A stretch of 64,000 nt of DNA from Lasiosphaeria ovina (lineage: Eukaryota; Ascomycota; Sordariomycetes; Sordariales; Lasiosphaeriaceae), in assembly GCA_033439765.1 (NCBI GenBank), contig JAULSN010000015.1:186001-250000 (forward strand), given 5' to 3'. The notes beneath the pieces are model-generated. The model was not told where the DNA came from. It saw only the letters and a list, made by a program, of their open reading frames with translations, and ran no database searches. Made by a program: the position numbers and the translations under genes. Numbering within the stretch: the stretch's first letter is position 1; the number at the start of each line of letters is the position of its first letter. Shown here piece after piece: positions 16,222-57,385 of this stretch.

Positions 16222-16229
16222 ATCTAAAG

Positions 16230-22200: not shown

Positions 22201-22470
22201 CTAAGTTTAATAACGCGGGTAGGCTCCCGACGCCACCTAGTATTACGCCGAAGACTTCAAGAACTCCCTAATTCTCCTAAAAGAATATTACGATACCTAC
22301 CCCGATAAAGCCGGACCGCCCGTACGGCTCGATAAGTAGCTATAAGTAGCTAAGGGGGATAGGTTTGAAGAACTATACTAAGACGATAATAAACCTATAG
22401 TAAAAGGTCATCCGCTACGTAGAATAACCCGACGTCGATAAGCTAAGGGGGGTTAAGCTTCGAGGCGAAG
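16230..22470 (+). pseudogene. Element W gag-pol, stop-riddled
   Basis: Read conceptually on the plus strand, domains follow Ty3/Gypsy order. A decayed CCHC knuckle lies at about 17985-18040 (cysteines turned to tyrosine). A protease-like region is at 18350-18660. Reverse transcriptase spans 19300-20050, with FYINYRKLNA, the FSLINSLVIFQRF motif and a YLDN version of YxDD. RNase H is at 20270-20700 and integrase at 21100-21560 (IVIDRLSKASQYIPYY, VINDRGPQFIS). A C-terminal tail reaches about 22460. Nearly every CAG, CAA and TGG position is TAG or TAA, and CpA is depleted while CpG survives. No functional product is possible. Confidence 0.88.
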
Positions 22471-22492
22471 CTTTTTTCTAACCCGGGGGTAG

Positions 22493-22747
22493 TATTACGG
22501 TAGGTACGAAGGACATTTGGGTGGCCCTAATCGGTCGTACGCTATACGACTCGAGCTGACTAAGCAACCCCGCTATTAGTGGCCTGTACTAAGTCCTGCC
22601 ACGTGACCCACAAAACCTAGCCCACTTCTCCGCGTACTACGCAGCCTTTTGGAACTTTCTTTTCTTTTTCTTTCCTTAGCTTTAGATTCTACGAATATAG
22701 CGATAATTAGTATAGCCCTGTCTTATTAAATCGACTGTGCGGTGATA
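22493..22747 (+). repeat. 3' LTR of element W
   Basis: 255-bp direct repeat of 15967-16221, followed by the ATACC target duplication at 22748-22752. It contains a conserved pyrimidine tract (TTTCTTTTCTTTTTCTTTCC) near the middle. Confidence 0.93.
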
Positions 22748-22752
22748 ATACC

Positions 22753-25299
22753 CGGCAGAATCGGTAGTTTATATAATTAACTTACGCTCCCGAGTCGGCG
22801 TTAAGGGTAACGGTTAGGGGTACGGCTTTTCTACCCCTTTAGTACGAGTAAGTACTACCGAGTATCGTAAAGGTAGGCCTTAGCTTTACCCCTATAATAG
22901 CTTAGGTAGGTCGATTAGGGTCGTCGCCTACTATCCTTCGTTTTCCGAATCGTCCTCTAAGTCGGAGGGTTCCGGGTATAGGTTACTAGGGTCCCTATTA
23001 TTCTCCGTACCGATATTCTGGATCCTAGTATCCGAGCCCGGTAGGGCCGTAGTACGTAGGAGGGTATATTAGCGTTATATATATCCTAGCTTACCGTAAT
23101 TATAGTACGTAATAGGCTCTCTAATATGGAGGAGGGCCTACGCGTTAGACCCGGTAGCTAGTTATATTAGGGCGGGAGGTATATCCTTTATTAGCTAATC
23201 CCGGAGTTCCCTTCGTTAAATCCGGGCTTTATCATAGCGGGGCCCGGAGTAAGCTTCCTCCGTAGTACGTAGTAGTTTCTAGGCTTCGTCGAGGCTAGTA
23301 GGGGAGCCTATTTATTTTTAGTAAGTTTCTTTATTATTACCGTTCTATAAGTAGGACCGGGTTAACTAAATACATTTGTACTATTCGGTATAGTCCTTTA
23401 TTAAAGTAACGTTAGAGATAGCCTTAACGCATTAGCTATAGTAAAAGCGGTCTAGTTTAATCTAGTAGTCCCGTATTATAAAGGGGCTTTCAGTATCTAT
23501 ACTAGGGAGTCGTCTAACTAGGGCGGCCTATTCTCTATAGAACTCTTAAGGTAATCTCCCGCGTTAGGTATAAACTAGCTAGTCTTTATATACTTAGACT
23601 TCTCCGGTTTTACTATTAAGGTAATCCAAAGTAATATAGTCCTTAAATTCTTACTATACGATTCGTTCGAAGTTCCCGTTATAGAGCTACTTCTAATAAG
23701 CCCGCTATTATTATTACGTTTCCGGCTCTATTTAGGTACTAGCCTATTAGACTTAGAGCTATTAAGGTCGGTCTTAGCGTATAGCGTTTTCTTATTCTAT
23801 AGCTTATAGCTAGTCTTCCCTATTCTAGAACGAGGTATTAACCCTTAGCTTACTAACCGTATAAGTAGGGGGGCGGTCGTCTTTCGGCCGGGATAGGCCT
23901 CCTTAAGGTCCTAGGTTAGCTAGAGTAGTTCTAAGGTTACCTAGGCCGGTAGAAAAGTTAGTTATCGCTTATAATATTAAGGCTTAGAACTACTAGGGGT
24001 CTATACTAGTAGAGGGTATAGGAGAGTTCTATACGGGGTCGTCCAAATCCTTAAGGGTCGCTTATTAAGTTAAACTAGCCTAAGGAGTAGCTCTTCTCTT
24101 TCTACGAGTACTACCTACCATAGTAACCGGCTCGATCGTTACTGGTAGTAGGGAGGTTAAAGAATTATAAGAAATAGCAAGTACGCCTAATTAAGGTAGT
24201 TATAATATAAGTAAGAAGAAGGGTAAGTAATAAGTAGTATTAGTAAGAGACTTTAACCTAGCCCTCGTAAAGGAAGGTAGGCGAAGGCTACTGCTTATAT
24301 ATATACTTAGGGGCTCCGTTCTTTATAACGGTAGTAATTATGCTAACTAGTAGTAGTCTAGCTAGTTAGTAATAGGTAGTGGGCGTATATGCTTAGGGTG
24401 TTCTTTCCTTATATTAAACTCGATAAATATACTCTCGGGGTATTTCTAAATAAGCTTAGTAAAGTCGTTATAATCTATCTAACCTTCGAAGGGGATTTAA
24501 CCCCCGTTAACTTCTAAGAGAGTCTAGAAGGAAATAACTAGGGCCGTTTTTCCGTTCTAGGGGTTAATATCTACTAAGGTCTATAGTTAGGCTACTAGGT
24601 CGATAACTAAGTCTTCTATTATATTAATAAAACGGATATTAGGAAGAAGGTCCTTTATCCCCTAAATCTATTCTAATAGGTTCTTTAATTTAAGTATTCC
24701 TAAACGACTACTCTAGGGACTTCCTTAGATAGTTATAGTAGTAGTTACGTTAGTAGAGTCGATACTAATACCGACTACCGTCGATCTTCGACGTAGCGAG
24801 GTATCGGGGCGACGCTTATCGTTATTAATTAGGCTCTCTACGGCTTCTAGGTCAAACCGCACCTCCTAGTAAGCGCGCTCGCGCTCCGGCTTCGATATCG
24901 AGGTACTCTGGGGCATAATATCGGTAGTACGTAGCGGTCGCGTTACGTATTAGTTCTAGGTTCCGACGATTCTTCTCACGTAATCGTACGCGATCGTTAA
25001 TTAAGGGTAAGATATTATTTAGGCCTTCCTAGGTAAAGGAATAAGCTTAGTTAAATAAAAAGGTAAGTATATATAAGAGATAATACTATAAGTAAGAAAT
25101 AGCTATATTCGTAAATAACTAAGCTAAAGAAAAGAAAAGGAAAAGAAGAAGTCTACGTACCTTATAGGCTTATAGTTTTATAGTAGTATGCGGGGTCGTG
25201 GCCCTAGTCCCGATTGAGAGGAGTAGGGCCTTTATATTAGGGCTTACGGCTAGGGCATAGTTACGGTACCACGGACCTCAGTTCGGCCGTGCCGTAACA
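22753..25299 (-). pseudogene. Gypsy element V, gag part and 5' LTR region, RIP-destroyed
   Basis: This continues element V on the far side of W. On the minus strand a decayed zinc knuckle (ITYYNYGKLGYI, from a CxxCGKxGH pattern with Cys changed to Tyr) lies at about 23080-23130, with gag-like helical text upstream to about 24870. From about 25040 to 25299 the sequence is LTR-like: it begins, reading the minus strand, TGTTACGGCACGG at 25299 and carries a pyrimidine-rich tract similar to the one in the W LTR. The exact inner LTR edge is uncertain because the second LTR is not in the window. Confidence 0.65.
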
Positions 25300-26501
25300 C
25301 TACCTCTACTATTCTACGGTAAATAGTTTACTTACACTACTCTAGAAATAGAGAATACGGTATTCTGGCCGCCGAATTTAGCTGGCGCGTGTCGCCATTT
25401 TCGGCGGCTTCGACACTAAGTATATAAGTCTCTTATAAGTACCGTGTGGGTACCTGTGTCATAGGAGCCTTCTATCCGTAGCGAGCATCTCATAGATGTA
25501 TAGCCTATAATAAGGGGGGCCTGTACTATAAGAAGCCTAGCTCCTTAGTTGGTTTATTTCACGCATCTCTATTACGGTCTATCGTAAGTGGTTGGCTAAG
25601 CATAAACTTAAAGAGAACATTTCATTAAAATTAATAATAGCTATGCTATACTATAGTAAATAGGCGACCGAAGTTCATCCGTTCAATGGTTATTCGGGAT
25701 CTTGGCATGCGCCGCCCCGTTTTGAAGTAACTAACGAGCTAACTGGCCGCCGGTTATAGCTCCTCAAGCTTCAAAACGTCTTCCTGTGCCATTGTTCTTA
25801 TCGGTACCCGTCTTTATTTCCTGCTCTTCCACACCATATATACGCCATCCGAATTTTATTAGTTCAAGAAGGTCTTGTTTATCGATGTCTTCGATGTTCA
25901 CGACGTTTTTCGCCTCGCCGACGAGCTTCTTACGTGCTCGATTCCTCTTCGGCAAGGGGCAGGCCAAGGAAATCGTTGTCGTCCTACGCCTAGGGCGCAG
26001 AGGCACCGCATACGTCTTTATGGTCTGGATTTTGCGGTGAGCTTCGTCCGAATGCCTCCCTTTTCCAGCGCGTGCGATAGATCGGAACGTACCGTTTGTG
26101 CAGTTTGGCCGCGTCAAGTATATTATTATAGTTGATTTGATGGATTTGGTTGACTTGCATACTAAAACTAACCCTTGCTTACCAAATACCTGTTTTCTTC
26201 CCTCCCTTGCGCTCGGAATGCCCTCCTCAATCCGCCTACATCCCTTGCATCGGAAATTCGCTCATTTCTACAGCATCCCTTTTGCTCGGAATGCCTGCCC
26301 TGAATACGGATTTCCGTGGGGACATTCAGAGGGCTTGTTGGCTATGAGAAGACGCTTTTTACACTAAAAACCCGGATTTTTTCTGGGACAAAGCCAGCGC
26401 ATCCCAACTTCAGTTCAATTAGTCGGGACCCGCGCGCCTTGGTCGTTGAAGCCTGGGCCCTAGATGAAGCCTGAGTACGGGTGGGCGTATAAGCAGTAGG
26501 A
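25300..26501. other. Transition zone from RIP block to gene island
   Basis: A sharp compositional change occurs here. Bases 25311-25341 repeat the motif found at 2684-2714. One minus-strand ORF is listed separately at 25764-26117. The region 26120-26500 downstream of the ABCC stop is AT-balanced, with a repeated GCTCGGAATGCC at about 26210-26300 (two copies, 26211 and 26284), and shows no gene. Confidence 0.45.
25764..26117 (-). CDS. Hypothetical 117-residue protein
   Basis: An open frame with a basic N-terminal half (RPRRRTTT, PKRNRARKKL) and an acidic, helical C-terminal half (NIEDIDKQDLLELIKFGWRIYGVEEQE). It resembles a small nuclear or chromatin-type protein in composition only; no family is recognised. 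It lies between the RIP block and the ABCC gene. It could equally be a relic exon. Confidence 0.25.
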   Translation of the reverse strand: MTRPNCTNGTFRSIARAGKGRHSDEAHRKIQTIKTYAVPLRPRRRTTTISLACPLPKRNRARKKLVGEAKNVVNIEDIDKQDLLELIKFGWRIYGVEEQEIKTGTDKNNGTGRRFEA

Positions 26502-29500
26502 TCATGCGGCATCGGCCCTCTGCCTGATGTCCCATGCAGCCTTTGAGAGGGCAAGGAGCTCGTCGCGGTCCACGGCAGCTTCGCACATGCTCTGGAAGAT
26601 ACCGCCCTTATGCTGCAGCAGCTTCCATGAATGGTCGCACTCCTTTACCTGCCCCCTATCCAGGCTAATAATACGGTCGTAGTTAATGACAGTGCGGAGA
26701 CGGTGGGCAATCGTGATCACGGTGGCCTCTAGCTGCCGGATGCACGCCTGGATCTTGAGGTCCGATTCGTGGTCGATCGATGCTGTGGCTTCGTCTAGGA
26801 TGACTACCTTGGAGCCTTTCAATACGGTACGTGCAATGCATAGAAGCTGCCGCTGCCCCTGCGAGATATTGGAGCCCCCTTCGGTAAGAGTGAAGGACAG
26901 GTCCGCGAACTTTCCGCCTTTGTCGGTGGTGGAATTATCGAGCAGGCCAATACGTCCCAGCGCGTCAAGGATCTCCTGGTCAGTGTGCTCGTCGTATGGG
27001 TCGAGATTCAGACGTAGCGTACCTACGAAGAGCGTCGGGTCTTGCGGGACATAGGCAAGCCGGCTACGCAATATATGTAGATCAACTTCTTTGGCGTCCT
27101 GGCCGTCTATTAGGATCCGCCCGCTCTCGACTTCGAGGCCACGCAAAAGAGTTAATGCCAGGCTCGACTTTCCAGCCCCGGTGCGGCCGACGAGTCCTAT
27201 TCTCTCCAAAGGTCTAACGCGGAAGGATATGTCTGTGAGCACGGGGTCCAAGTGGGCTGCGTAGCGCGCCGAGACGCCCTGGTATTCCACCAGACCTGAT
27301 GTGGGCCATTCCTGGCTCGGTACCGTATCAGACCTCAACTCCTGAGCCTCGGCGCTTTCGCCCATGACGCCACTAACGCGTTCTAGTCTAAATGAAGTTA
27401 GTTTATTAGAAAAACTCTCTGCCCTCCAGAGTTCTGCAAATGAAAGAACTTACGCCGTCATATTCTGGGCAGTCGCAGTGTAATATCGGATCAACCATAG
27501 TACGTGTTCCGAAAACACAATGGCATACGACATGCTCAGCCCAATGTTGCCGGCATTCTGGCTGTTCCTGATGGAAAACGACCCGGCAAATAGAGAAACA
27601 AAGGCACTCGTGAGACTGAGCCGGAGAACCAACCACCTCTCCGTAGCGCCTAGGAAGAATGAAGGCTGGTTAAACCTGCCAAGCAGACGTAAGCTGGTTG
27701 CCGAATACTCCCTCTCTGCGCCGTAGGCACGGATGGTGACGATGCCGGAAAGGGTCTCGCCGAGATGCTGGAAGACGGGGGAGCGACGTGTAGTTTCTAG
27801 GGTTTTCAGGTCGTTCGACGAAGTGATGTAGATGGTAGCGATAAGATAGTAGATGAAGCTGATTAGAACCGCCGGTAGCAAGAACTGTGGCGTAATGGCG
27901 ATGATCAGAATCGTAATGCCCATGAGCGCCCCTATAAAGTGCAGCGTTGCCAGAGCGAGGACCGCGAGGTCCTGGTCGATAGTCTGCATGTCCCGAGAGA
28001 ACAAGCCAACTATCTGGCCAAAGGACTTGTCGTTAAAGTACTTTAGAGACGCACCCAAGATGGATTTGAGAAGAGTGTCGTGGATGCGAAATGACGCCAC
28101 CAGGGAGCCAATGGACAACATATACAACCTCATGAAGCCTATAATAAGATAGATGATAAGAAGAAGGGCATAGATTCCGAAGTAGTGCCACAAGCCGAAT
28201 GGCGATCCGAGGTTGGAGCCGTCGGAGGACGCCTCCACCGTCGCGCTGGAGAGCCGTTGGACCCACCAGTTCACCGTGATAGATCCAACCTGCTGTGCCC
28301 CGAAGAAGAAGAGAAGGAAGGCCCAGAACACCCACCCGCCCATGGAAGAGAGGTATTTGAAGACGGTCCTGGACGTGTTTGTTCCACCGGGCTGGGCTGC
28401 AGGGGGGGAGGAGTCGGTGTCGTTCTTGTTTGTCTCGGCCTTTTCTTGCGTGGGCTTCTGCTTAGCTGTGCCGTCGCCGGATTCCGCTTCGTTGGTGACA
28501 TCGATATTACTCTGAGCGCTCGCGAGCTCAGGAAGCTGCCCTTGAGCAGCCAAATCTCGTTGGGAGCCCGCAGCGGTTACCGTGCCGTCGCTGAGCTGAA
28601 CGATATAGTCGGCGCCAGCGGCGGTAAGCGCCACATTGTGCGTTGCCAGGATGGTGGTTCGTCCCTGCATCAAGCGTCCCGTGATGCACTTTTGGAAGAT
28701 CCACGAAGCAGTGTGAGCGTCAACGGCACTCAGGCAGTCATCTAGAAGCAAGTATTGCGCGTTGGAATACACGGCACGTGCGAGGGAGACGCGTTGCTTC
28801 TGCCCTCCCGAGAGAGAGACGCCACCGTCTCCAACTGAAGTGAGATCACCTTGAGGAAGTATCTTTAGGTCGGGCTCGAGAGCGCAGGCGTGTAGGACGG
28901 CATTGTAGCGTTTTTCGTCAAACGGTTGGCCGAAGAGGATGTTGTTCCGCACAATGTCATTTCCTAGCCATGCCTCTTGGGCACAGAAGGCGACACCTTC
29001 GACCAGACCCGTTTCGTCATCTTTGGCTAGGGTTTCCCGGGGACCCGCGGCAGGCATCCTCACGCTCCCAGAAATGAGCGGCATCTCGCCCAGCAGTGCG
29101 AGCAGCAACGAAGACTTTCCGCTGCCAGTAGGCCCGATGACGATATTAAGCTTTCCGACCTCGAATTTCAAATCAAGGTTCCTGAGAGTGAACGATTCGA
29201 CATTTCCCGTGGTCTTGCTGTCGGTTGGCGTGCTATCCTCCTCCTTTCCTGGCCACGAAAAGGATGCGTGCTCAAAGCCGATTTGGACCCGGCGGCCGGT
29301 GGAATTTCCAAGTACTTGATACTTTTTCGTTTCCTCTTCGGCCAGGAAACTCTCCACCCGCCCGAGAGCCACAAAAGATCCTTGAACACGTGAGAGCATA
29401 CCGATCAAATCGTCGATAGGAGCCTTCAAGAGGTTGAAGAGTGATAGTGATGTAAAGGCGATGGAAGGTGTTAATAACTTCCCCTCGATGACCGAGAAGA

Positions 29501-31145
29501 AGAAGAAGGAGGAAAAGGTGATTATTTGGGGCAGGCTGTACCAGATTGTCGCGGCTATCGACCAGAGCGTATAGCGGGCGCGAAGCTTATCCAGCTCGGC
29601 AGCCCGTTTGTCGCCAATCTTTTGCTGGAAAAAAGAGTCCCAAGCGATAAGCTTGATCACCCGGATACTGCGGATCATCTCTGTGGTGCTTTGGATCCTG
29701 GCATCAGACGCGGCCATGACTTGCATCTGGATGGCGGCGAAACGTTGGGCAATGCGCGAGTTCACAGGGACCATCAGCCCCATTAAGGCGATGCCGGCAA
29801 AGGCACTGAGCCCGAGAGTCCAGGACAGCAGCCCGACTGCAATGATAATTTGCGTCGGAACCGAGGCCCAGACCTGGTGCATGTTCGCCCCCGAATCAGC
29901 AAGTTGGCTAATGTCGTTGGTGAAGAGGTTCATGATCGTGCCGATGTTGGTTGGCTTCCCTGCAGCCCGTTCCTTTGAAGGACCGACGACAACCGGCCGC
30001 CTCAACGCCTTCTGATAGACCTCGCTGATCAAGATTGTCTTGAGCCGAAGCCCAATCTTTTGGCCGATCCAAATGGTACGAGCTTCGGCAGCTGACGCCA
30101 GGATGCTGCTGATAAAGACGAGCACCACGTAACCCTGAGCTTCCGTTATAGAAGACTCGGTCTGGCCCTCGACAAACTGGAGAATCGACCTCAAAAGCAA
30201 GGTCGGCATGAATGTCAAGACTGCCCAGGCCACAGCCAGGACTCCCTGGACGGCGAACTCTAGTCCGAAGTGTCGTAGAAGAGTACCGAGGAGAGATGCG
30301 CTACATTAGGCAATAACTATTAACGACTCTTACTTGTGGAATTATAGCACAGACAGGTTCCGACTCACCTCTTCCGCTTTGTCGGAAGCACACTCTTATC
30401 AGCAACGGTGAGTAGAGACAAGTCGGGAACATGCTGAGACTGCAGACCGCCGTTATGCCAAGCTTTAAAGAGCATGTCATCGAGCCAGGCGAAGGCCCAA
30501 AAGCCAAAAAGACTAGACTGGGATTCCCCGGTCGGGTCGGCCTCGAAGCCATTGCCCTGCTGGAGCGCACGAGGCGCACGAGGCGGACGGGGCGAGAGCA
30601 ACGCCGTGGCGAGCAGAGCAGAAGACACTTTAGTCGCCGTCGAACCGGCGTCCAACGTCAAGATGGTCATGAGCCAAGATATGGCATAGAAGATGGCCGA
30701 GTGACAGTAGGCAGCCGATCCAATGTGCTCGAGGCCAGAAGGATGCAGCAGGGTCAACAGGTATAACACGCACAGGTATGACCTAAAGACCACGCCAGCC
30801 CAAGGACTGGCCGATGCGTTTATAGCGCTGCCATCTCGGCCGAGCGACAAAGATGTCGCTAGCAGTAGTCCTTCAAGGGCGGTAAAGAAAATTGCGCGGG
30901 CGGATTTGGCGCGGGGGTAGGCGGCGCGTTGTCGGGTCGAGCATATTCGTAGCTGTAGCGCAAGCAGGATGCCGGATGTAAACACAAGGAGGAGAGGGGG
31001 ATGGAATCCGGAATAGCTACGTAGAGAAACAAAATGGTCAGCGACTACGGGTCGTAGATGCGTGTCGCGTCGGGGGAAGAAAGTATGCTCACCGCTCGAC
31101 CAAGTCCAGCGCCGAGGCGGGAACCAGGCTCCAATCTAAAGCCAT
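26502..31145 (-). CDS. ABCC-family (MRP-type) full-length ABC exporter, four exons
   Basis: This is a multidrug-resistance-associated type pump that exports conjugates or secondary metabolites across plasma or vacuolar membrane. I read four exons: 31145-31093, 31016-30369, 30300-27454 and 27387-26502, with GT-AG introns of 76, 68 and 66 bp, giving 1477 residues, normal for the family. Order: TMD0 (about 20-200), TMD1, NBD1 with Walker A GPTGSGKSS near 623, signature LSGGQKQR near 735 and LLLDD Walker B, a Ser/Thr/Glu linker, TMD2, then NBD2 with GRTGAGKSS near 1249, signature NISQGQRQL and ILDEATASID. In NBD1 the Walker B ends in Asp-Asp rather than Asp-Glu, the usual asymmetric ABCC site. 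It diverges from the glycosyltransferase across about 560 bp. As the end gene of the UstYa-containing group it is a good candidate product exporter (inference). Confidence 0.93.
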
Positions 31146-31708
31146 AGTGGAGACCCGGCGGTTAGTTATTAATGCGGGGCTCTGTTCTCCTCCTTTTGTC
31201 TTTTCTTTTTAACGGTGCGCCGTGCTTGATTGCTCGATTGACTTGTCCTGTTTGTAGCTGATGCTTGGCGCTAGGTAGGTCGGTCGAGGCGGGAATGCAG
31301 TTGTGATTGAATGAGGAAGACAACAATTGCGATTTGCGGCGGCAACCCCCACCCAACCCCGTCTGAGTGGGTCCGTCTACTGTAATAACGGGCTCCCATT
31401 AGCCCTGAGGGGCAACTAGGCAGCCTTCCAGTGCCCAAAGTCCATCCCAACGCTTTCCTACCCAACGAATCTAGTTAAAGTTAGTGGGCCGTCCTGATCA
31501 AACGATGGGTGTCCTCCCGAAGAAGTACATGCTCCAACGTTAAATGCACACAGCACATTATTGGAGCCTAGAAATTTATTAGAGTTAGCTAAAAAATGAT
31601 ATACACACTCTCTCCTGGCTCGCATTCAGTTAGGATTCTCTCCCTTTCAACCTATAGCTGCTGCACCGGCGCACGCTCCCCACCACGCAAAACTTAATCT
31701 AACGGGTC
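31146..31708. promoter_or_regulatory. Divergent intergenic promoter region between ABCC exporter and glycosyltransferase
   Basis: These 563 bp separate two divergent start codons, so both promoters must lie here. It holds pyrimidine-rich tracts near each start (for example 31600-31665) and no ORF of note. I recognise no specific transcription factor site. Confidence 0.45.
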
Positions 31709-32713
31709 ATGTCTGTCGCGATTGCCACCACCGTCCTAAACCCTGCTCCGAACCTCAACATATGGCTCGACTACCACCTGCGGCGCTGCGCCGTCATCAT
31801 CCTCTACCTTGATGACCCAGACAGGCGTAGCTTGTTTGAGCCGTTTTGCAATGGCAGGTCCGTGTTGGTGTTTGACGGCGCCCAGGATATGCCCGCCATG
31901 TCGCCTCCCAACCGGCTGTTGGTGCGGCAGCCGAGCAACCTGAAGCACGCAATCTCGTATCTGTTGGAACATGGCGGTAAGTGGGGAGGAGTCGATTGGC
32001 TACTTCACATTGACCAAGACGAGATCCTCTTCGAAAACGGGCACACATCGTGGACGAATGACCCCCGCGTGGGGCACGTCACATTCACCAACCATGAGGC
32101 TGTCCCGCTGAGGCATGATACCTCAAACGCCTTTGCCGAATGCGTCTGGTTCAACACGAATGGTCCTCATGCCGAGCCCTTCATGGCCTATGGCAATGGC
32201 AAGAGCGCCGTGCGGCTCTCTAGCGGGGTCGAGCCAGACGGTTCCCACCAGTTTCAGCACTTTCAGGGCGAAGCAGTCACCCTTGGCCTACCCCGCGCCG
32301 CTTTTGGTGCCGACGCTAGCGACGCACAAGCACAGGCGTTGGACGACGCCGCTTTTCCCGTGCTGCTCCACTATCCGTACCCTAGCTTCGAGAGCTGGCG
32401 CGCCAAATTCTGCCTGTATGGCGGCTTCTCCGACTACTGGATGGACGACGAGCGGTATCCCAACAGGCTCGACTTCATGCTGCAATCGCGCGACCAGGCG
32501 CTGGCAGCACTGCAGGCCCTCAAGCGGGACGGTGCCGCGGCAGGTGATCCTTGGGCAGAGGCAAGGCGCTTTTTTGAGACTCGGGCTTTTGTTGGCGATG
32601 AGTTGCAGAGAAGGATTGCGGATGGCAGGGTGCGGTACTACGCTCCCACGTGGCTCCCTGCGGCAATCCGCCGCCATCCCGCGGTGGAGCACCACCAGCG
32701 GCAGGACCCATAA
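31709..32713 (+). CDS. GT2-like glycosyltransferase (Glyco_tranf_2_4 / DUF23-type)
   Basis: Single exon, 334 residues. The N-terminus (SVAIATTVLNPAPNLNIWLDYHL) matches the opening beta strand and 'D-H' of family-2-like transferases that act on small or peptide acceptors. HIDQDEILF at 100-108 supplies the DxD-type metal and nucleotide-sugar binding motif; HFQGEAV and LLHYPYPSFESW are conserved C-terminal pieces. No signal peptide or membrane segment is evident, so it is probably cytosolic or loosely Golgi-associated. It is followed 300 bp downstream by the 2OG oxygenase on the same strand. A role in glycosylating a hydroxylated peptide is inference from context. Sugar and acceptor are unknown. 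Confidence 0.75.
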   Translation: MSVAIATTVLNPAPNLNIWLDYHLRRCAVIILYLDDPDRRSLFEPFCNGRSVLVFDGAQDMPAMSPPNRLLVRQPSNLKHAISYLLEHGGKWGGVDWLLHIDQDEILFENGHTSWTNDPRVGHVTFTNHEAVPLRHDTSNAFAECVWFNTNGPHAEPFMAYGNGKSAVRLSSGVEPDGSHQFQHFQGEAVTLGLPRAAFGADASDAQAQALDDAAFPVLLHYPYPSFESWRAKFCLYGGFSDYWMDDERYPNRLDFMLQSRDQALAALQALKRDGAAAGDPWAEARRFFETRAFVGDELQRRIADGRVRYYAPTWLPAAIRRHPAVEHHQRQDP

Positions 32714-33013
32714 GCTAAGCTTTTCGACTGATCCCAAACATTGGCGTTACCCAACTCGAGCAAAAGTTCGGAGCTAAGTTAGTTAGCGCCCCGCGCTCGA
32801 CGGGCACTAGCGCGCCCGCACCCGCGGGGCGGTGGGGGGGAGTGGGGGAGGTTGGCAAGGCTGGTAACGTTGGGTGGCTTGCCGACTTCTGTCTCGCTGC
32901 CCCCCCCCCCCCCCCTCTCCCCCGGTCTCCTGTACTTACTTAGATACTTAACTAAGGGAAGAAAAAAAGAATCACAAAAGACAATCGTAGTTAAGACAGC
33001 CGGCCATACCAAT
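32714..33013. promoter_or_regulatory. Short intergenic promoter with C16 homopolymer
   Basis: The 300-bp gap contains a run of 16 cytosines at 32900-32915 and a G-rich tract at 32827-32850. It should hold the terminator of the glycosyltransferase and the promoter of the oxygenase. No specific motif is recognised. Confidence 0.4.
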
Positions 33014-33935
33014 ATGGCGAGAAGATATGTTGCGCTGGGCCGTTATGTCGCCGTATTTGCCCTTGGTCTCTCAGTCCCACTGCTCGACATAGCCGGACCG
33101 CTCCTTCCGCAATGGAACTTCCTTAGCCCAGCGACGTGGCTGCGCGGTGCACACAGCGACCTGGTCGCCCTGTCCAAGAACCACCGGTACACCTTCCAGG
33201 TGTTGTCGACAGACCCCTTCATGGTCTACCTAGATGGGTTTATCCATCCCAGAGAGGCCAAATATCTCATTGAGCTAGGGTATGCGCTAGACATGCTAGA
33301 CCTACCACCCACGGGTGGTGGTGGACCTTTAGCTAATTTCGGGTTTTGGGGCCCCGCGCAGAAAAGCAAAGTTTGAGCCGTCCAAAGTCTATACCGACCC
33401 GGAAGAAACCGAGTGGCCGTCTCCTTCCTACCGCACCTCCGACTCCAGCGTACTGTCGTCTAAAGACGCCATCGTGTCCATCATCCGCGACCGCGCCTAC
33501 TTCGTCCTGGGCTTCCTGCCTCACATCGGCGTCGAGGCATTCCAGCTGGTGCGCTACCACGATGGCGACCTCTTCGGCATGCACTACGACTGGTTCAAGC
33601 AACCCCTTCCCGACGGCAATACGAGCGAGTACTACAACCGCCTAGCCAGTTTCTTCTTATACCTTGAGGCTGACTGCAAGGCTGGCTCGACGTACTTCCC
33701 CCACCTGCCACCGCCGCCCGTGAGCATCCAGGACGACAACACGGGGCGCTACTCGACCACCAAGAACGGGACGGGGCTGGCCGTGCTGCCGCGGCTGGGC
33801 AGCGGGCTGTTCTGGCAGAACCTGCACCGGAACGGCACCGGCGACGAGAGGCTGCTGCACGCGGGGCTACCCGTCATTTTCGGAAGCAAGATTGGCATGA
33901 ACATTTGGATCAAGGGGCGAGTTGCGCTACCATGA
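33014..33935 (+). CDS. Prolyl-4-hydroxylase-like 2OG-Fe(II) dioxygenase, membrane anchored
   Basis: Two exons, 33014-33279 and 33362-33935 (intron 82 bp), 279 residues. A hydrophobic segment at about 7-28 is a signal anchor, placing the catalytic domain in the ER or secretory lumen. The P4Hc domain has the iron ligands His163 and Asp165 in MHYDWF, distal His255 in LLHAGLPV and the 2OG-binding Lys265 ten residues later, the classical H-x-D...H...K set, so the enzyme looks active. Family members hydroxylate peptidyl proline or related residues using 2-oxoglutarate and O2. The ATG at 33014 was chosen over an upstream in-frame ATG at 32852 because the upstream stretch crosses the C16 run and looks non-coding. 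Acting on the prolines of the nearby small peptide is a hypothesis. Confidence 0.85.
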
Positions 33936-34155
33936 AAAGAGTGGGCAGGTGAGACTGTTGATGATAATGTCTAACAACACTACGAAGTGAGGGACAGTTA
34001 TAGTATTTGTCCTGATGTACACATACACACACACAGGTACATAACTCGACCCTAGCACGCTAGATTTATCTTGGCTTGTATTGCTAGCAAAGGATTTTGA
34101 CTTAAGTCTGTCTGTCTTCTCCCTTGCTGTTTGCCTTTACTCTCTCTGCTCTTCA

Positions 34156-35121
34156 TCACGGTAGCTGCTGCTCAAAGGAATGATCTGAGGCCCAGATAGC
34201 CAGAGCGTCCCAGTCGTTGCACTGGTGAATCTGGCCGTCGCCAAAGACGTTGGCGTCTTCCGTGTACAGCAGTGCTCCGTCGGCCTTGCACTGCACGAGT
34301 TGCCGCAGGCTGTCGAGGCAGTGCGTGACGTGATTCCAGGGAACTGTCTGCTCTTTGTTTTCCCTGAAGTGGTAGAGAGCGGCGCGGACGACTGTCTATT
34401 TATTCAGGGGAAAGGGCGGCAGAGTTTAGTAATTGCGTTCCCTCTAATGGTTCAACAATAACAAATAAAACGATATAATAAGGGGGAGGAAGTGGAGGAG
34501 GGGGAAAGAGAAGAGGAGGGGAAAGGGGAGGTCTTACTACGCAGTGCAGTTGGTGGAATCCAGCAACAAAGTATACCACAGAGTCTTTATCTGCTGGGTT
34601 TGGGAGACTGAGTGGTAGGTGGCGTGTCATGGCCCAGCTTTTCTCTACAGTAACGAGCCCGGCGCCTCCTGCTTGTTGCAAAGAAAGTGGAGTTAAAAAA
34701 AAAAGAATACAAGTAAATCTGTTATATATAAAGTTGAATTGGAAAAAGAGAGTGAAAAAATGAGGGGACACCTACGAGGAAAGAGTGAGGCCCAGAGAGG
34801 ATTGGATATCGTCTTGTTGTCATTGCTAAATGGCGTGTTCCAGTGGAAGGCTGTCGACAACTCATCATGATCCTTGTGGTCGAGGAGATCTATCGCCGGC
34901 GACGGAACGACCTTTTGAACACCAAGGCTGTAGCCGGCGAAGATGCCAACCCAGAGGCTGTTACTAGCGAGCAGTGCCAATGCAAGAAAGACGACCCATC
35001 TCCTCGAAGACGGTGATGACGGCGCTGAGGAAGACCAGCTCTGGCCCGATAGGAACCCGGCACCCGACTCGGAGGAGAGACGTTCCACGGGCGAATAGTC
35101 TTTGTCGTTCTTGGTTGCCAT
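34156..35121 (-). CDS. UstYa-family (DUF3328) oxidase 1
   Basis: Three exons: 35121-34776, 34668-34538 and 34395-34156 (introns 107 and 142 bp), 238 residues. Order: a Ser-rich cytosolic N-terminus, one membrane segment near 40-65, a linker with WASLFP then GAGLVTVEK, and the two diagnostic HxxHC motifs, HQLHC near 153-157 and HVTHC near 180-184. After them come QLVQCKADGALLY and the C-terminal HQCNDWDALAIW, all hallmarks of the family. UstYa proteins are known to carry out oxidative macrocyclisation or dehydrogenation of fungal RiPPs (ustiloxin, phomopsin, asperipin) and some other metabolites. It diverges from the small secreted peptide gene across a 907-bp region. Exon joins were chosen to restore conserved motifs in frame. 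Confidence 0.9.
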
Positions 35122-36028
<907 letters not shown>

Positions 36029-36247
36029 ATGAAGTTGAACAGCATCTTCCTCAGCATTACCGCCTTTGTGCTTGCTGCCCGTGCCGCTCCCGCTCCCGTC
36101 GACAACGACGCTATCCAGGCCGTCAATGTTGTCGTCAAGGGCCAGCCCTTCCCTCCCTTCGGGTATGTCGTTGCACATACACACCCGGAAAGGAGCACCT
36201 TGACAGACTGTACTGACATGCTCGTGTCTAGATATGAGGGGGCTTAA
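36029..36247 (+). CDS. Small secreted peptide, candidate single-core RiPP precursor
   Basis: Two exons, 36029-36162 and 36232-36247, with a 69-bp intron (GTATGT donor, ACTGAC branch site, TAG acceptor), encode 49 residues. Residues 1-20 form a clear signal peptide (MKLNSIF start, hydrophobic core, Ala-Arg-Ala-Ala cleavage region). Residues 21-36 are an acidic, Ala/Val-rich leader-like part. The C-terminus from about residue 37 is KGQPFPPFGYEGA, rich in Pro, Phe, Gly and Tyr. The splice junction falls inside this segment, so the last Tyr-Glu-Gly-Ala comes from exon 2. There are no cysteines, Lys-Arg sites or internal repeats. Position between two UstYa genes and near a P4H-like enzyme, glycosyltransferase and ABCC pump suggests it is the substrate (inference). 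Alternatives are a pheromone-like or effector peptide. Confidence 0.7.
   Translation: MKLNSIFLSITAFVLAARAAPAPVDNDAIQAVNVVVKGQPFPPFGYVVAHTHPERSTLTDCTDMLVSRYEGA
36163..36231 (+). other. Intron of the small peptide gene
   Basis: 69 bp, GT-AG, with a consensus fungal branch point CTGAC about 15 bp before the acceptor. Without splicing the frame reads on to 36247 out of family character. The canonical signals make the spliced form the better model. Confidence 0.8.
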
Positions 36248-36584
36248 GTTCAAGACCACATAACGGGCCGAGGCTCAGTTCCATAGATGGACATCTCAGT
36301 GGGGGAGAAGAGTGGAAAGGGCTTTCTTGTGGTTCGTGGTCTCCTTTCATGTGCTGTTTCGTTGAACAGATAGGATAAACTAGTCCTAGTTAAATAGTCA
36401 GAACCGCAAGCTTTGCCATACATTGATATGTCATCTATTATTGTCTCTACTGTGTTCTTTGCATGTGGCTCGAAGCTTTCCTTTCTATGCGGCACTTGTG
36501 TATATTAAAACATGGTATTGGTAATCGTGTTATTCTGTCAATATATAACTACTCATCTTGCGTATTATGATGCCACCCTAGTGG
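36248..36584. other. Convergent intergenic region
   Basis: The 337 bp between the convergent stops of the peptide gene and UstYa 2. It is AT-rich after 36360, with A/T runs consistent with 3' processing signals. No gene seen. Confidence 0.5.
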
Positions 36585-37684
36585 CTACGTGTCTACCCTA
36601 ACCGAGCCAGTGGTGATGTTCCTTTGGCGAGCCCATTCCCATAAGGTGCCCCAGTTGCGGCAATGTCGAGGCGTGGCCCCGGGGTTGGCTTGGGGCTCTC
36701 CATCCAGCGTCGTATAGACAATGGGCTGCATGTTTCCTTCGCACAGGAGACTTTGGCGGAGAAGCCCTAGGCAGTGTTCTGTCGCCGCGCGAAAAGGTTG
36801 GGTTAGAAGGTAAACATGCCCAAAAAGGACATGAGCAACAACAGCCTTGAGAGACAGAGAGGTCTTACCAGTGTGGACGCGACGCTCCTCAAAAGCCTCG
36901 TCGTTGTGCATCTGGGGGAGCCCAAGTGCAGAGTTTCGGACATAATTCTGGCAGGTCAGACCATGTGCGCCGAGCAAAAGGGAAATGGGACAAGACGGAC
37001 CAGACAATGCATATCATGAAAAACCTGAGGAGTGACGGCAAACTGGCCTGGGGTATCTGCATCGCGAGCAGTGCGGGTGGGGAGCCTCGAAGCCTCTTCG
37101 GCGGTAATGCTCAGAAGCTGGACTGTGTTTCGCGTGTGCTGCATGTGAGCCAGTGCCAAACAATAGCCAGGGGTTCTGGTGCGGTGCATTTTAGTGTCTT
37201 ACTGCTCGACACTTGACGCCAAAGTGCGTTAATGTTATCCTCGGAGCCTTCAAACCAATGTCGTCCCCAGAAGGTCTTGAAATCGGGCGGGTTCGGGGCG
37301 GGCCCTGTGTCGTAGCGAACAGTAGAACAGCTGATGGCGGATGAGGCGTCGTCGTAAATGTCTATGTTGTGTGTTGTTGCGAGGTCAGCTGCGGCGTCGT
37401 GACCCGAACGAGAAGCAAATAAAATATTTCTTCATGCCTTCAAAGCTTCGAAGACGGCGGCATTCTTGCTCGACAGTTGTCGAGTCGGGATGTTTGGGTT
37501 TGGCGGGCAAAAGCAAGAAACATGATAGCGCGAGAATAATGTTGGCTAGCAGTGAGAGGCCAAAGAAATATGGCAAGCGTTGCCCCTTCGATTGCGTGTC
37601 ACTGGCGAGAGGTGGTATGTGAGCTTCTTCAGAAAGCTCCACCGAGTCTCGTTGAACTTTAGTGTACGTGCGTGCGGTCAGCAT
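36585..37684 (-). CDS. UstYa-family (DUF3328) oxidase 2
   Basis: Five-exon model: 37684-37456, 37388-37203, 37122-37001, 36947-36869, 36778-36585, about 269 residues; the first intron is the least certain because no good GT donor is seen. A membrane segment (FFGLSLLANIILALSCFLLL) lies near residues 38-57. The tail carries both HxxHC motifs, HDMHC followed by LNYVRNSALG, and HTEHC followed by LGLLRQSLLCEGNMQP, then HCRNWGTLWEWA. The introns of 80, 53 and 90 bp all end in AG and rejoin these motifs in frame. The 'LRQSLLCEGNMQP...HCRNW' pattern is the UstYb-like subtype often paired with a UstYa in RiPP clusters. It is a probable oxidative tailoring enzyme acting on the adjacent peptide (inference). 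Confidence 0.85.
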
Positions 37685-38107: not shown

Positions 38108-40790
38108 ATGGCCCACTCCGATTCTGAAGACGTGACTGGGGCGCCAGAGATCATCGCGAGTCGGCAGCAAACTCGGTTCCACCTCCTGGAAGATGCCAGA
38201 TCGTCAGACGTACGTCCTTTCCTCTCCGCCTCCTCCACAACGGGGAAAGGGAGAGGCCTCGCGCCATCCTGAATGCGTGTCTAACCACATCCCGGGCTTG
38301 TCTACAGGTCACCATCGAGCAATTAACCCTCTCCATCCGCGCCAGCAAGGCGGGCAGCAAGGCGGGCAGCAGCAAAGCTGCCAAGGCGGGGAAAGCGAAA
38401 GCTGGTGGTGGGGCTGCTGCCAAGACACGCGATATCCTGGTCGATGCTACTTTGCGACTTAAGGCCGGCGTCCACTTCGGTCTTCTCGGCCGCAATGGCT
38501 CGGGCAAATCCACTCTTTTGAGGGCTCTGGCGGCAAAGGTCATCCCGGGTTTGTCGCTTGCCACCAGGATTGTGCTTCTGCAACAAACGGCTGCCGAAGA
38601 CGGCTCTGGCACCGAGGCGCCCACCGGACCCCGCGGGGCGAAGACGGTTATGCAGTACATACTCGAGGGCGATGAGGCGAGAAACCAGATCTTGGAGGAA
38701 CTGAATAGTAAGATACCTTTGACGCCGATTGGTTGCGACCCCAACGGCTGATCATATCTGCACACAGCCCTTACTCGGATCGAGCCCAGAGGCGACAACG
38801 AGGAGCTGGGGCAGCTTCGCGCATACCGTCGACTGCTATACACGCGGATTCAGAGACAGCGTATCGAGGCGCAGAAGAATGCGGCACTTCGGAGCGGGGC
38901 CAGGGGCTCCCAGGCGCGTAAAGAGCTGATCGCGTTCGAGAAGAGGGTGGAAGAAGCCCGCGACAGGTATGCACGCAGCAAGCAAGCAATACGAGAGGGT
39001 CGGGATGTGGGCACTGACACAAGTTAGGGTCGACAACACTGAGGAACGCATCGATTCCAAAGAGTGTCAAGACGAGCTCGCCGAAGCTTCGCGGCTGACA
39101 GCAGAACTCCAAACAGAGCTGGACGAGGTACATGGGCCCACTCCTTCGTAACACACAGACAGACAGCAAAGTCTGCATCGAGGCTGACAAGGCGGTCTAT
39201 ATTCGCAGCGGCCTCTCGGAGACCTCGAGGCTCGGGCGCGAAAGGTGTTGTCTGCGCTGGGATTCACTGATGAGATGATGCAAAAGCGATTCGACGAGCT
39301 CTCTGGGGGCTGGCAGATGCGCTGCATGCTCGCCAACACCCTTCTCCAAGACGCTGACATCATGATCCTAGACGAGCCCACCAACTTCCTCGACCTGTTG
39401 GGCATCATTTGGCTTCAGAAATACCTTATTGATCTCCGGACTGAATCCAGCAAGACCATCATCGTCGTTTCGCACGATCGCGACTTTATCGATCACGTAT
39501 GCCAGGAGATCATCATGATAAAAGATCAAAACCTAGAATATTTTGACGGAAATTTAACTACATACGAAGAGGATCAACAGTCGAAGAGGGTGAACTTGAC
39601 GCGCTTAAAAAACGCCCAGGAGAAACAGATTGCTCACGTAGAAAAAACCATTGCCAATAACATCCGGGCCGGAAAGAAGTCTGGAGATGAGAATAAGTTG
39701 CGCCAGGCCGTTTCTCGCCAGAAGAAGTTGGAGGACCGCATGGGCATGCAGACTAACGCCAAGGGTGGGAGATTCAAACTCTCAAGAGACATGGCAGGCT
39801 ACCACACTTCGAAGCGTGCGGCCATCGAGATTCCTCCCGAGGAGAGCGCAGTGGCGATGACACTCCCTCTCGCGCCCGACCTCCGGTTCCCCGGGGCCCT
39901 CGTATCGCTGGATCATGTTTGGTTCTCATACAAGCCTGAACAAGCCTCCATCCTGCAAGACGTGAGCCTGAGCATCGAGATGGGATCACGCGTCGGCATT
40001 GTTGGCCTCAACGGCAGTGGCAAGTCAACACTCGTTAAGCTCGTCACAGAGGTTGCATCGCCAACTAAGGGAACCGTCACCCGCCACCCCCGCGTAAAAA
40101 TAGGATACTATTCCCAACTGGCAGTGGAGGATCTGAGGACCGCCGGGGCGGCTGATCCATCCATGACAGCACTCAGCACCCTAGCAGCTGAGGCGGGCAA
40201 AGAGATGGACGAGAGTGACATGCGCGGCCTCCTTGCTTCGTTTCACCTGAAGGGGGATACTGCTTCCGCTGTCCCAGTCGCAAAGCTCTCGGGTGGTCAA
40301 TTGGTATGTTCAGAGCCATAATGGTTCCGTACCAAATTTTTTTTTTCTTTAAAAAAAAAATAATCCCTTTCTTTCTCATTCCTCCCACTGGTATGGCCGA
40401 GGCGGACTGATAGCTAATGTCTCCTAGGTACGTCTCGCCCTAGCTTGCATCATCTGGAAACATCCACACCTTCTCGTTCTTGATGAAGTCACGACCCATC
40501 TCGACTTCTATACGGTTCAAGCGCTCGGCCGAGCTTTGAGGGGTTTTAATGGTGCACTTTTGCTTGTGTCCCACGACCGGTTCTTTGTCAAGTCGGTCAT
40601 CGAGGGAGCTGCCGAGCTGATGGGAAGCGACGAGGAGGACGAGGGGTCGGATGCCGAGGAGCAAGTAAAGGCCGAGATGAAGCGGAACTTGTATCTTATG
40701 AAGAAAGGGAAGCTGACTCTATTGGCGAATGGTGTGCGTGACTTTGAGGAGAGTCTAGAGTCTAGGGTCGATAAGCTACTTGCCGCTTAA
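38108..40790 (+). CDS. ABC-F type ATPase (GCN20/Uup-like translation factor)
   Basis: Six exons: 38108-38209, 38308-38707, 38768-38966, 39028-39127, 39209-40303, 40428-40790, with GT-AG introns of 98, 60, 61, 81 and 124 bp; 752 residues. It has two ATPase domains and no membrane segment: Walker A GRNGSGKST near 95, signature LSGGWQMR near 298, ILDEPTNFLD near 320; then the helical ABC-F linker (LKNAQEKQIAHVEKT); then GLNGSGKST near 534, LSGGQLVR near 627 and LVLDEVTTHLD near 648. A Lys/Ala/Gly low-complexity stretch lies near 47-66. ABC-F proteins act on ribosomes (translation control, stalled ribosome rescue, antibiotic protection). Whether it is a housekeeping neighbour or gives self-protection to the cluster is unknown. 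Confidence 0.9.
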
Positions 40791-41041: not shown

Positions 41042-41833
41042 GAGCTTTGATGCACGCACCCACCACCTTTTTTCTCGCACCTACCTGTGGGTCATTGGCA
41101 GCTGGCAACATAGGGACCGCCTTTTGTATGGTAAAATGCCGTATTGCATGGCAGCCACCCAACGGCCTACCGGGCATTGAGGAAGCATACCGGGCACTAA
41201 GGAAGCCCGGCAAAGTCAAAATGACACTATTTACACTTCCACATGCCGGAATTTGCACGCGCAGTTGGTGTTTTAAGGTCTGCAGCGGCCAGGTGGCCTT
41301 TGCAGGCTTTTCCTTTGCCAAACAACCCTTGAACACATCATCAACCTACCTTTCCGCTCACAGTCTTCGTAGTGCCTTTTATCGAGATTTCCTCTGACGG
41401 TTACCAGATTGATAGAGTTAACACCAAGGAATTGTATTACTATATTAACAAATCAGGATTGAATAGGTAGATCATTTAGGCAACTGGGCGCCTGCCATGA
41501 AATTTGGCCAATTTACGTACAAATCCGGGCCTCAGAGTTGCCATTTGCAAGTTACCTTTATTCCGAGGCCGATTCAGCAACGAAGAAGTCGTCAAAATGG
41601 AAAATACCACGGTAAACGCGTTTTCAGGGCTTTTGAAGGTTTTGATAGCTTCAACGTTATCAACCCGGGCGGCCGGGCGGCTGGGTTAGCACATAGGAAG
41701 CGCATGGGCGGGAAGATGATATTTCACAATTTTACCGGCCTAAAATAGGCTCTGCGTATCTCAGCTGCCAACAGCTGCCAAGGTCCCCAGGTAGGTGTGA
41801 GGAAGAAAGTGGTGGGTGCGTGCATCAAAGCTC
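41042..41833. mobile_element. Non-autonomous hAT-like inverted-repeat element (MITE), 792 bp
   Basis: The left end begins GAGCTTTGATGCACGCACCC and the right end is its inverted complement. Inverted similarity extends roughly 70-75 bp on each side (41042-41115 against 41760-41833). The flanks carry an identical 8-bp direct repeat, ATAATATA, the duplication length of the hAT superfamily. The interior has no transposase and only short ORFs, with a small internal direct repeat (ACCGGGCA) near 41168-41200. It sits cleanly between the ABC-F and MFS genes and is not RIP-damaged. Confidence 0.85.
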
Positions 41834-42675: not shown

Positions 42676-44489
42676 ATGCCGAAGTCGTTATCCCAGGTAT
42701 GCCATTATAATACTGCCGTCCCGAGCTCCTTTATTATTTTTTTCTTTCTTTTTCCCTGTCTCTTCACTAGGGGCCTGGTCGAGAGAGAGGCTAATTAGCA
42801 CCTCTCCCCCCCTAGATTCGCGATGCGGGGCAGATCGTGGGACTCATGGTGCTTGTCACGGTGGGCATGACCATGTTTGACTCAGCGCGCGTGCCGACGC
42901 TCGAGGAGGCCGTGTGTCGTAGCTTTTACGCCGAAAACCCCGACCAGGTGAATTCAGAGGTAGAACAGTACGATTGTCGAATGGGCGAGGTGCAGGTCCG
43001 TCTCGCCAGATTGAACGGCTGGTTCGAGAATTTATCGGCCGTGCAGGCCCTCGCCCTCACCCTCCCATATGCCTGGCTGGCCGAGCGCGTCAATAGGCAG
43101 ACGTTTCTCTGCGTCGGGTTCATCACGTCAGTCGCCTCCATGGCTTATTTCTTTTTAATATGTAAGTGTTTTTCTTCTTCAAGTCTGGCATGTTGTCCAA
43201 CTAACGGGACGGTCGAGGTCATTTCTCTGGCCCTTCACTTCCTCTTCAGCTCGTCGTGCTGTCGCGCGTTGCCGAATGCATCGGCGGAGGCATCTCTATG
43301 GCCTACATCCTGCTATACTCGCTCCTGGCCCTGGCGGTCACGCCGGAGACACGGTACGTCCTTCCGTTGCTGTCGCAACCATTATCTGACAGTTGGCAGC
43401 TCCTCCGTCTTCTACTTCATTGGCGCAGGCCTGCTCCTGGCGCGTGCATTCGCCATGGGTATTTGCGGCATTCTCCTCAGGGACTACCCGTGGACAGTCG
43501 GCCCGGTCACCGTAGTTGCCTATTCTCTCAATATCCCGCTTGCCCTATTCCTGCCCAGACATTCCCCCAAGCTGCTCACCCCGGACCCAATCCCGGTCCC
43601 AGGGCCGATCGGGGGACCTGGTGATCGTCTCCTCCCGAGCTCCCCTGCTACCATTGGCCACAACAACATGGTTGTGAACGACCAAGACGACGACGGCGGC
43701 GGTGATGGTGTCCACGATATCCGCCACAACGCCAGCCACCGCCCCCCCCGCGACGAGGAGAGTCTGGTGAGCCCTACTGCCACCATGGATGACATTATTG
43801 ATGCCGGGGTCGTCGAACCGGACAAGTCGATCCTCGAGCACTGCAAGTACGCGCTTGTAACAACGTATCGAGAATACTTGGGCCGCACCGTCTTCCGCAT
43901 CAGCCTGATTGCGTGCGGCGTCAAGATCATTGGGCTCGACGTGCAGTCAATCCAGACGCAGTAGAGCGTCAAGCGGTTCGACTGGACTTTTTCCGCCGTC
44001 ACCTACGTCAACGCCTACGCGACCCTCGTGTGCATGCTGGTCCTCGTAGCCTTACCATCACTCTCGGGGTACCTGATTGCGCGCCTCGGCAGCGTCCGCC
44101 GCATGGAGCTGGCCATCGTCAGAGGGAGCCTCACTCTGAGGATTATTGGGAACCTGGCCATGGGTCTCGCCCCGTCCCGCACGCACTTCCTCATCGGCGT
44201 CACCGTGCAGGCGCTTGGCGCGGGGACGTACGACACGTTCAAATCGTTTCTGACGGGTTTGAGTTCGACGGGCCACGTCGCTGAGCTGTACGCGGTGATT
44301 GCCCTCGTGGAGACTGCCGCGCACATCATCTCGTCGCAGATGTGGGCGAATATTTTGGTCTTCTCGCTTCATCTGCCAGAATACCTCATTGGTCTACCCT
44401 TCTGGATTTCTGCCTCCCTCGCCCTCCTCACCATCTTCATCATCCAGCTCATGGTCCGTGACCTACGCCACGAGCCACCACCAGCATAA
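42676..44489 (+). pseudogene. MFS transporter interrupted by one in-frame TAG
   Basis: Exons 42676-42696, 42816-43161, 43218-43353 and 43400-44489 (introns 119, 56 and 46 bp) give about 530 codons with 12-TM major facilitator character. It has an opening helix (GQIVGLMVLVTVGMTMFD), a Cys-containing loop, TM2 with LPYAWLAERVNRQTF (the MFS loop-2 motif region), SRVAECIGGG, an acidic central loop and a C-terminal half ending PPA. A single TAG at 43962-43964 splits the C-terminal half; the same frame is open for 175 more codons and keeps TM character. CAG-to-TAG by C-to-T in a CpA context is the RIP signature. It is a likely recent pseudogene; a sequencing error, readthrough or strain polymorphism are alternatives. 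The second intron uses an unusual GAG acceptor after an ideal CTAAC branch site. Confidence 0.8.
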
Positions 44490-46886: not shown

Positions 46887-46970
46887 TAAAGTATAGCTAG
46901 TTACCCAGGGTTGTAGGGTCCTGAGGTGTAGGGCACTATAGTAGCTATGTTGGAGTATTATAGCCGTTTA
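46887..46970 (+). repeat. RIP-damaged partial Copia LTR start
   Basis: Begins TTAAAGTATAGCTAGTTACC and follows the start of the LTR at 13556 for about 80 bp, with several C-to-T and G-to-A differences (GCAGGGCACTG against GTAGGGCACTA). It joins directly to the inverted-repeat end of element Z copy 2. Confidence 0.6.
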
Positions 46971-50462: not shown

Positions 50463-50467
50463 TCTCT
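50463..50467. repeat. Target duplication TCTCT, left of element Y
   Basis: Repeated at 57381-57385; the uninterrupted site is visible in Y itself near 52736-52745. Confidence 0.9.
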
Positions 50468-57100: not shown

Positions 57101-57127
57101 AGGCGGTGGATATTAACCTTAGAATAA

Positions 57128-57380: not shown

Positions 57381-57385
57381 TCTCT

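Follow-up and report, generated by a model that had tools for sequence, protein, structure and literature searches.

Gene Content and Setting of the Locus

The window analysed, a stretch of 64,000 nucleotides from the 51.7 Mb genome assembly of Lasiosphaeria ovina, contains a gene island of normal composition located between AT-rich blocks identified as RIP-mutated by their RIP indices (Table 1). No frames of at least 150 aa were present inside the two RIP blocks among the frames listed. The island holds all genes discussed below, which encode, from left to right, an ABCC-type exporter, a GT-A fold glycosyltransferase (GT), a prolyl-4-hydroxylase-like dioxygenase (P4H; a 100% match to the public L. 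ovina entry P0001), UstYa-A, a putative precursor peptide, UstYa-B, an ABC-F protein, and an MFS-like transporter. The five genes from GT to UstYa-B occupy less than 6 kb. ABCC and GT, UstYa-A and the peptide, and UstYa-B and ABC-F form divergent pairs, and each pair could use one common promoter region. The first-pass annotation had delimited a six-gene set at positions 26502..37684; its coordinates were verified and all six genes were found to be open once spliced, and the island extends further to about 44.5 kb, adding the ABC-F and MFS-like genes.

Table 1. Features of the window, in order of position
Feature	Position	Strand	Structure or remark
Gag-like CCHC zinc-knuckle frame	2883-3392		retroelement piece
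Asd-4-like domain protein	10071-10874		51.1 bits
RIP-mutated AT-rich blocks	about 12000-25600 and 46000-64000		TA/AT about 1.5-2.2; bound the gene island
ABCC-type predicted full exporter, 1477 aa	26502..31145	-	exons 31145-31093, 31016-30369, 30300-27454, 27387-26502
GT-A fold glycosyltransferase, 334 aa	31709..32713	+	one open frame; DQD motif D102/D104
P4H-like 2OG-Fe(II) dioxygenase, 279 aa	33014..33935	+	exons 33014-33279, 33362-33935; N-terminal hydrophobic stretch
UstYa-A (DUF3328), 237 or 238 aa	34156..35121	-	exons 35121-34776, 34668-34541 or 34668-34538, 34395-34156
GA repeats, about 125 nt	about 35330-35454		in presumed shared UstYa-A/peptide promoter
Putative precursor peptide, 49 aa	36029..36247	+	exons 36029-36162, 36232-36247
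UstYa-B (DUF3328), 269 aa	36585..37684	-	exons 37684-37456, 37388-37203, 37122-37001, 36947-36869, 36778-36585
ABC-F protein	38108..40790	+	divergent from UstYa-B; exon structure provisional
Inverted repeats, 49 nt	41042-41833		90% complementary, 694 nt apart; between ABC-F and MFS-like genes
MFS-transporter-like open frames	42846..44489	+	one in-frame stop, with a long open stretch on either side

A scan of the region of 26-45 kb for repeats of at least 25 nt, a threshold at which shorter or diverged repeats could escape, detected two inverted repeats and one purine-rich pair in addition to the GA microsatellite. The 49 nt inverted repeats at 41042-41833 delimit an element that resembles a small DNA transposon.

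UstYa Proteins and the Putative Precursor Peptide

Both UstYa proteins matched PF11807, with scores of 79.2 bits for UstYa-A and 101.7 bits for UstYa-B, compared to the curated Pfam cut-off of 25; UstYa-A has two open models, which differ in the splice donor used. The motif scan identified HxxHC pairs at residues 154/180 of UstYa-A (HQLHC and HVTHC) and 174/204 of UstYa-B (HDMHC and HTEHC, the second split by an intron), and the most hydrophobic 19-residue stretch begins at residues 43 and 41, respectively. Both proteins thus display the paired HxxHC motifs and the N-terminal hydrophobic anchor of the UstYa/DUF3328 family, in agreement with the earlier description of two such genes flanking the peptide. 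DUF3328 proteins have been described as membrane-bound, lumenal binuclear copper oxygenases with the HxxHC motifs as the copper site, and they serve non-ribosomal pathways too, such as that of cyclochlorotine (PMC12435403). A sequence search against solved structures with UstYa-B returned a single match with an E-value of 0.86. Across the L. ovina genome, 22 PF11807 matches were counted exon by exon, indicating that other UstYa loci exist in this fungus.

The gene located between UstYa-A and UstYa-B encodes the peptide MKLNSIFLSITAFVLAARAAPAPVDNDAIQAVNVVVKGQPFPPFGYEGA, which has a hydrophobic signal region and lacks Cys. The signal peptide is followed by the conserved stretch NVVVKGQPFPPFG and by YEGA, which carries the sole Tyr; both an APAP and a PFPPFG stretch are present. 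The motif scan found no dibasic sites (KR, RR, KK, or RK) in the peptide, and no multi-core-like repeat family was detected by the repeat scan of 26-45 kb (at least 25 nt).

A search of 5.8 billion proteins with the peptide yielded one candidate and one match, the 84 aa protein P0056 (E 1.3e-12), originating from a source whose largest contig is 1001 bp. P0056 retains exon 1, with 32 of 45 residues identical, and continues with unrelated sequence from the splice donor onward; a 46th apparent identity in the BLAST alignment results from reading the splice donor and was left out of the count. By segment, identity was 13/20 for the signal region, 6/12 for the middle part, and 13/13 for the last stretch, NVVVKGQPFPPFG; the last value, compared to that just upstream, indicates that constraint is stronger at the Phe/Pro end. 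The conservation evidence, with P0056 as the sole homolog found, covers exon 1 and does not extend to YEGA in exon 2. The short two-exon secreted peptide proposed earlier is in this way supported as a conserved secreted product. The 69 nt intron is stop-free, and an unspliced form of 72 residues is formally open; this read-through was set aside, since P0056 diverges completely right after the donor, and the loss of homology directly 3' of it argues for splicing. In the 51.7 Mb L. ovina genome, the degenerate DNA pattern for GQPFPPFG had a single match, and no peptide copy was found besides the one in the cluster.

The P4H-Like Enzyme and the Glycosyltransferase

The catalytic residues H163, D165, H255, and K265 of P4H are invariant in 32 aligned sequences (of 55 matches), which upholds the complete H-x-D...H...K set reported initially. 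The modelled structure shows a 2OG-Fe(II) fold with this set in place, and the nearest fold is that of an algal enzyme, Chlamydomonas P4H-1 (27% identity), represented by entries of which one is with (Ser-Pro)5. On these grounds, the protein is predicted to be prolyl-4-hydroxylase-like and may hydroxylate proline.

The assignment of the neighbouring gene as a DxD glycosyltransferase was likewise corroborated: D102 and D104 of its DQD motif are invariant in 42 aligned sequences (of 108 matches), and the model has a GT-A fold with DxD. The nearest fold was plant GalS1, at 10% identity, and we presume that the GT92 family label applies to this GalS1-like enzyme. The Pfam scan reported only PF13704, with 20.1 bits, under its cut-off of 27.5, and a sequence search against solved structures gave no match. 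No GT paralog was found in the L. ovina genome beyond the cluster copy. Neither GT nor the homologs closest to it (P0057-P0066, P0069) have a signal or anchor, and all of them start at the catalytic domain; hydrophobic N-terminal extensions occur in several more distant homologs, e.g., P0074, P0076, P0079, and P0081. Since no secretion signal is visible, GT may act late, in the cytosol.

P4H-GT Pairing in Fungi and Nocardia-Group Bacteria

Searches outside L. ovina covered P4H, GT, and the peptide, and pairing in fungi was judged from consecutive locus tags or contigs of equal size. Adjoining P4H and GT orthologs were found in Dichotomopilus funicola (consecutive tags 24520/24521) and the lichen Circinaria calcarea (003999/004000); in Cladorrhinum samala the two matches lie on contigs of equal size, as they do on one further contig. 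Altogether, five contig sizes are common to the 55 P4H and 108 GT matches, that of L. ovina itself being one, and all five paired P4H sequences rank among the ten best P4H matches. The remaining 50 of 55 P4H matches have no contig size in common with a GT match; many of them are less closely related or come from short contigs. In Xanthomendoza, P4H and GT are both present on separate contigs. Two GT carriers, Cladorrhinum sp. PSN332 and Nemania abortiva, are not named among the P4H matches, nor is Flavoplaca among the GT matches.

In a survey of 150 genomes of the Nocardia group, a close GT homolog (E <1e-90) was detected in 10 genomes, and a distant DUF707-type match only in 13 more. P4H was found in 22 genomes, a lower bound, as a subset of the candidates was scored, with a few of the matches being weak. 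These 22 included all 10 close-GT carriers and none of the 13 genomes with a distant GT only; the other 12 had no GT match. The hypergeometric probability of such co-occurrence is 5.5e-10, a value that ignores relatedness and overstates independence because the genomes are related. P4H lies near GT in eight of the ten close-GT loci, at distances of 125-3029 bp, and elsewhere in the genome in the two others (G145, G147). Of the seven distant-GT loci fetched, two of them from contigs measuring about 4 kb, none had a P4H nearby.

In four loci (L045-L048) P4H and GT are arranged in tandem, 125-296 bp apart, and in three of these (L045, L047, L048) the pair adjoins genes that we take to be arginyl-tRNA synthetase-like and acyl-CoA dehydrogenase-like. 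The GT homolog of Nocardia aurea (L027) forms a divergent pair with a repeat-protein gene, after which comes P4H (PF13640, 58.3 bits). This repeat protein, which has 27 Ser/Thr-Pro motifs and no Pfam match, is presumably ESX-like, and the region 4111-8795 with the three genes is a possible bacterial hydroxyproline-glycosylation system. Ser/Thr-Pro- or Pro-rich repeat proteins adjoin GT in 4 of the 10 loci (L027, L050, L051, L052). Those of L027 and L050 have many Ser/Thr-Pro motifs and an overall Pro content of just 7%; in those of L051 and L052, Pro makes up as many as 44 of every 100 residues, and both of these loci are without a nearby P4H. The L049 locus encodes a similar protein to L027 and L050, but it has fewer motifs. 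The evidence from repeat-protein neighbours is moderate, since the scan also picked out frames lying some kb away from GT, both in L044 and in the distant-GT locus L055. When five Nocardia-group loci were screened for small conserved ORFs around P4H-GT, most of the frames returned were shadow frames of larger genes. Among the matches listed from open-licence PMC literature, no report of the Nocardia pairing was recognised.

The side-by-side orthologs in Nocardia-group bacteria and in some further fungi support P4H and GT as a working unit, and this recurrence of the pair is a new element beyond the first description of the locus.

Transporters and Further Genes of the Island

A Pfam scan of residues 1-821 of the ABCC protein gave matches to ABC_membrane (68.7 bits) and ABC_tran (68.4 bits), and in the translation of the second half we recognised what we take to be the motifs expected there. 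The protein is predicted to be a full exporter with two membrane and two nucleotide-binding domains; of this earlier assignment, the open model and the first half were confirmed, and the second half is read from the translation motifs. In the ABC-F gene, the middle exon matched PF00005 (93.9 bits) and PF12848 (34.4 bits), and a 54% identical paralog is located elsewhere in the genome (C27:5839412). ABC-F proteins are a family of ribosome-associated ATPases; the gene is a possible cluster member and might, as the cluster-linked copy, serve in self-protection. The frames at the right end of the island, which presumably belong to the MFS transporter family, gave no Pfam match on the three pieces scanned; their in-frame stop could reflect an intron or decay, and their cluster membership is uncertain. 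No peptidase gene was recognised within the island.

Comparison with Known Systems

The locus resembles those of the dikaritins (ustiloxin, phomopsin, asperipin-2a, epichloecyclin, and victorin) in having a secreted precursor beside UstYa/DUF3328 genes with the double HxxHC. Transporters occur in dikaritin clusters. One is part of the asperipin-2a cluster (PMC12048977). However, the known dikaritin precursors are repeated and Kex2-processed (PMC10512285, PMC9233826), whereas the L. ovina peptide has one core and no dibasic site. A UstYa homolog adjoins a secreted precursor gene here, as in dikaritin loci, and the repeated, Kex2-processed multi-core precursor (KEP; PMC10512285) was not found; for the latter reason we did not file the cluster as a dikaritin. 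Another difference is the presence of the P4H-like enzyme and the glycosyltransferase, neither of which is mentioned in the portions of the dikaritin literature covered. A predicted Trichoderma RiPP cluster includes a family 1 glycosyltransferase (PMC7099791), and a single core peptide has been raised as a possibility for two lichen clans without a repeated region (PMC12048977). The combination of P4H, GT, and UstYa, unfamiliar to the first-pass annotation, proved equally so here: no UstYa cluster with both a P4H-like enzyme and a glycosyltransferase was recognised in the open-licence PMC literature, among the matches listed.

The cyclochlorotine hydroxylase CctR is similar to UstYa-A and UstYa-B in being a DUF3328 protein with an HxxHC pair, an N-terminal anchor, and expected binuclear copper oxygenase chemistry, but its substrate is a non-ribosomal peptide, and no P4H or GT partner is described in the available text of the source (PMC12435403).

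The modelled folds, nearest to Chlamydomonas P4H-1 and plant GalS1, suggest a likeness to the hydroxyproline (Hyp)-O-glycosylation of plants and algae. There, a P4H acts along with Hyp glycosyltransferases. The plant transferases belong to other GT families and reside in the Golgi, unlike the L. ovina GT with its lack of a visible secretion signal. Glycocin pathways differ in that SunS and ThuS are S-glycosyltransferases, according to the entry titles, and the L. ovina peptide has no Cys. Glycocin S-glycosylation targets Cys and occurs in bacteria.

Proposed Pathway and Alternative Explanations

On balance, we lean towards a UstYa-type RiPP pathway with a single-core precursor, in which the peptide is probably the substrate of the UstYa proteins. 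The 49-residue precursor would enter the secretory pathway and lose its signal peptide at a predicted cleavage site, leaving about 30 residues ending in ...NVVVKGQPFPPFGYEGA. Judging from their family, the lumenal, membrane-anchored copper enzymes UstYa-A and UstYa-B may oxidise the Phe/Tyr-bearing end by crosslinking or hydroxylation, and the membrane-anchored P4H could form hydroxyproline in PFPPFG or APAP. Proteolysis would then deliver a fragment to the cytosol, where the soluble GT may add a sugar to the new hydroxyl, a step consistent with the conserved P4H-GT pairing, and the glycopeptide might be exported by the ABCC pump. The pump would fit such a late cytosolic stage, because a purely secreted peptide would need none. 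The weakest point is the apparent mismatch of compartments, GT seeming cytosolic and P4H, UstYa, and the peptide seeming secretory. The single peptide homolog, the P4H or GT carriers for which no partner match was found, the two Nocardia-group GT carriers with P4H elsewhere, and the lack of a dibasic site and of a recognised peptidase also weigh against the pathway. The chances that the peptide becomes a hydroxyproline glycoside are about even. The pathway interpretation initially put forward is partly supported, with the gene set, the conserved secreted peptide, and the P4H-GT pair in its favour. The precursor departs from the usual dikaritin pattern. More tentatively, with somewhat less than even confidence, a Hyp-O-glycosylation module (P4H and a soluble GalS1-like GT), common to Nocardia-group bacteria, a lichen, and Sordariales, could here be joined to two copper UstYa oxidases and a single-core secreted peptide, making this the first fungal class of glycosylated-hydroxyproline RiPPs.

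The locus could instead comprise two adjacent units, a RiPP unit of UstYa and peptide and a P4H-GT unit acting on another proline-rich fungal protein. The occurrence of the pair in Nocardia-group bacteria as well and the apparently cytosolic GT are in line with this, as is the fact that the Pro-containing neighbours in Nocardia are long repeat proteins rather than short peptides. We nevertheless regard this arrangement as rather unlikely, considering the tight spacing from GT to UstYa-B on an island between RIP blocks, the APAP and PFPPFG stretches in the peptide itself, and the failure to find a GT paralog in the L. ovina genome. Moreover, DUF3328 genes are widespread in lichens (PMC12048977), which makes a UstYa link possible in those carrying the pair.

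In another reading, the substrate of the UstYa proteins is a polyketide or a non-ribosomal product synthesised elsewhere, the peptide being an unmodified secreted signal or antimicrobial. This has a precedent in the DUF3328 protein of the non-ribosomal cyclochlorotine pathway (PMC12435403) and would accord with a peptide having neither a dibasic site nor a multi-core-like repeat family. However, no NRPS/PKS-sized frame was seen by eye among the frames listed, the peptide gene lies between both UstYa genes, and conservation in the peptide is highest at a Phe/Pro-rich end suiting oxidative tailoring, so we consider this improbable. Less probable still is a chance neighbourhood of unrelated genes on a gene-rich island, with no pathway at all: repeat-derived DNA does bound the island on either side, but the six genes are open as spliced, and both the peptide and the P4H-GT pair have conserved counterparts in other organisms.

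The P4H-GT pair provides a candidate family of hydroxyproline glycosyltransferases from outside plants, with bacterial versions available for study. Few fungal UstYa-type RiPPs have been characterised, five as of 2022 (PMC10512285), and antiSMASH detection rests on a peptidase beside a DUF3328 gene (PMC12048977). A single-core precursor of 49 residues, lacking a recognised peptidase nearby, could escape searches based on repeats and Kex2 sites or on peptidases; the P4H-GT pair can serve as a handle for finding clusters of this kind. The computed mass of GQPFPPFGYEGA in its unmodified form is 1265.57 Da.
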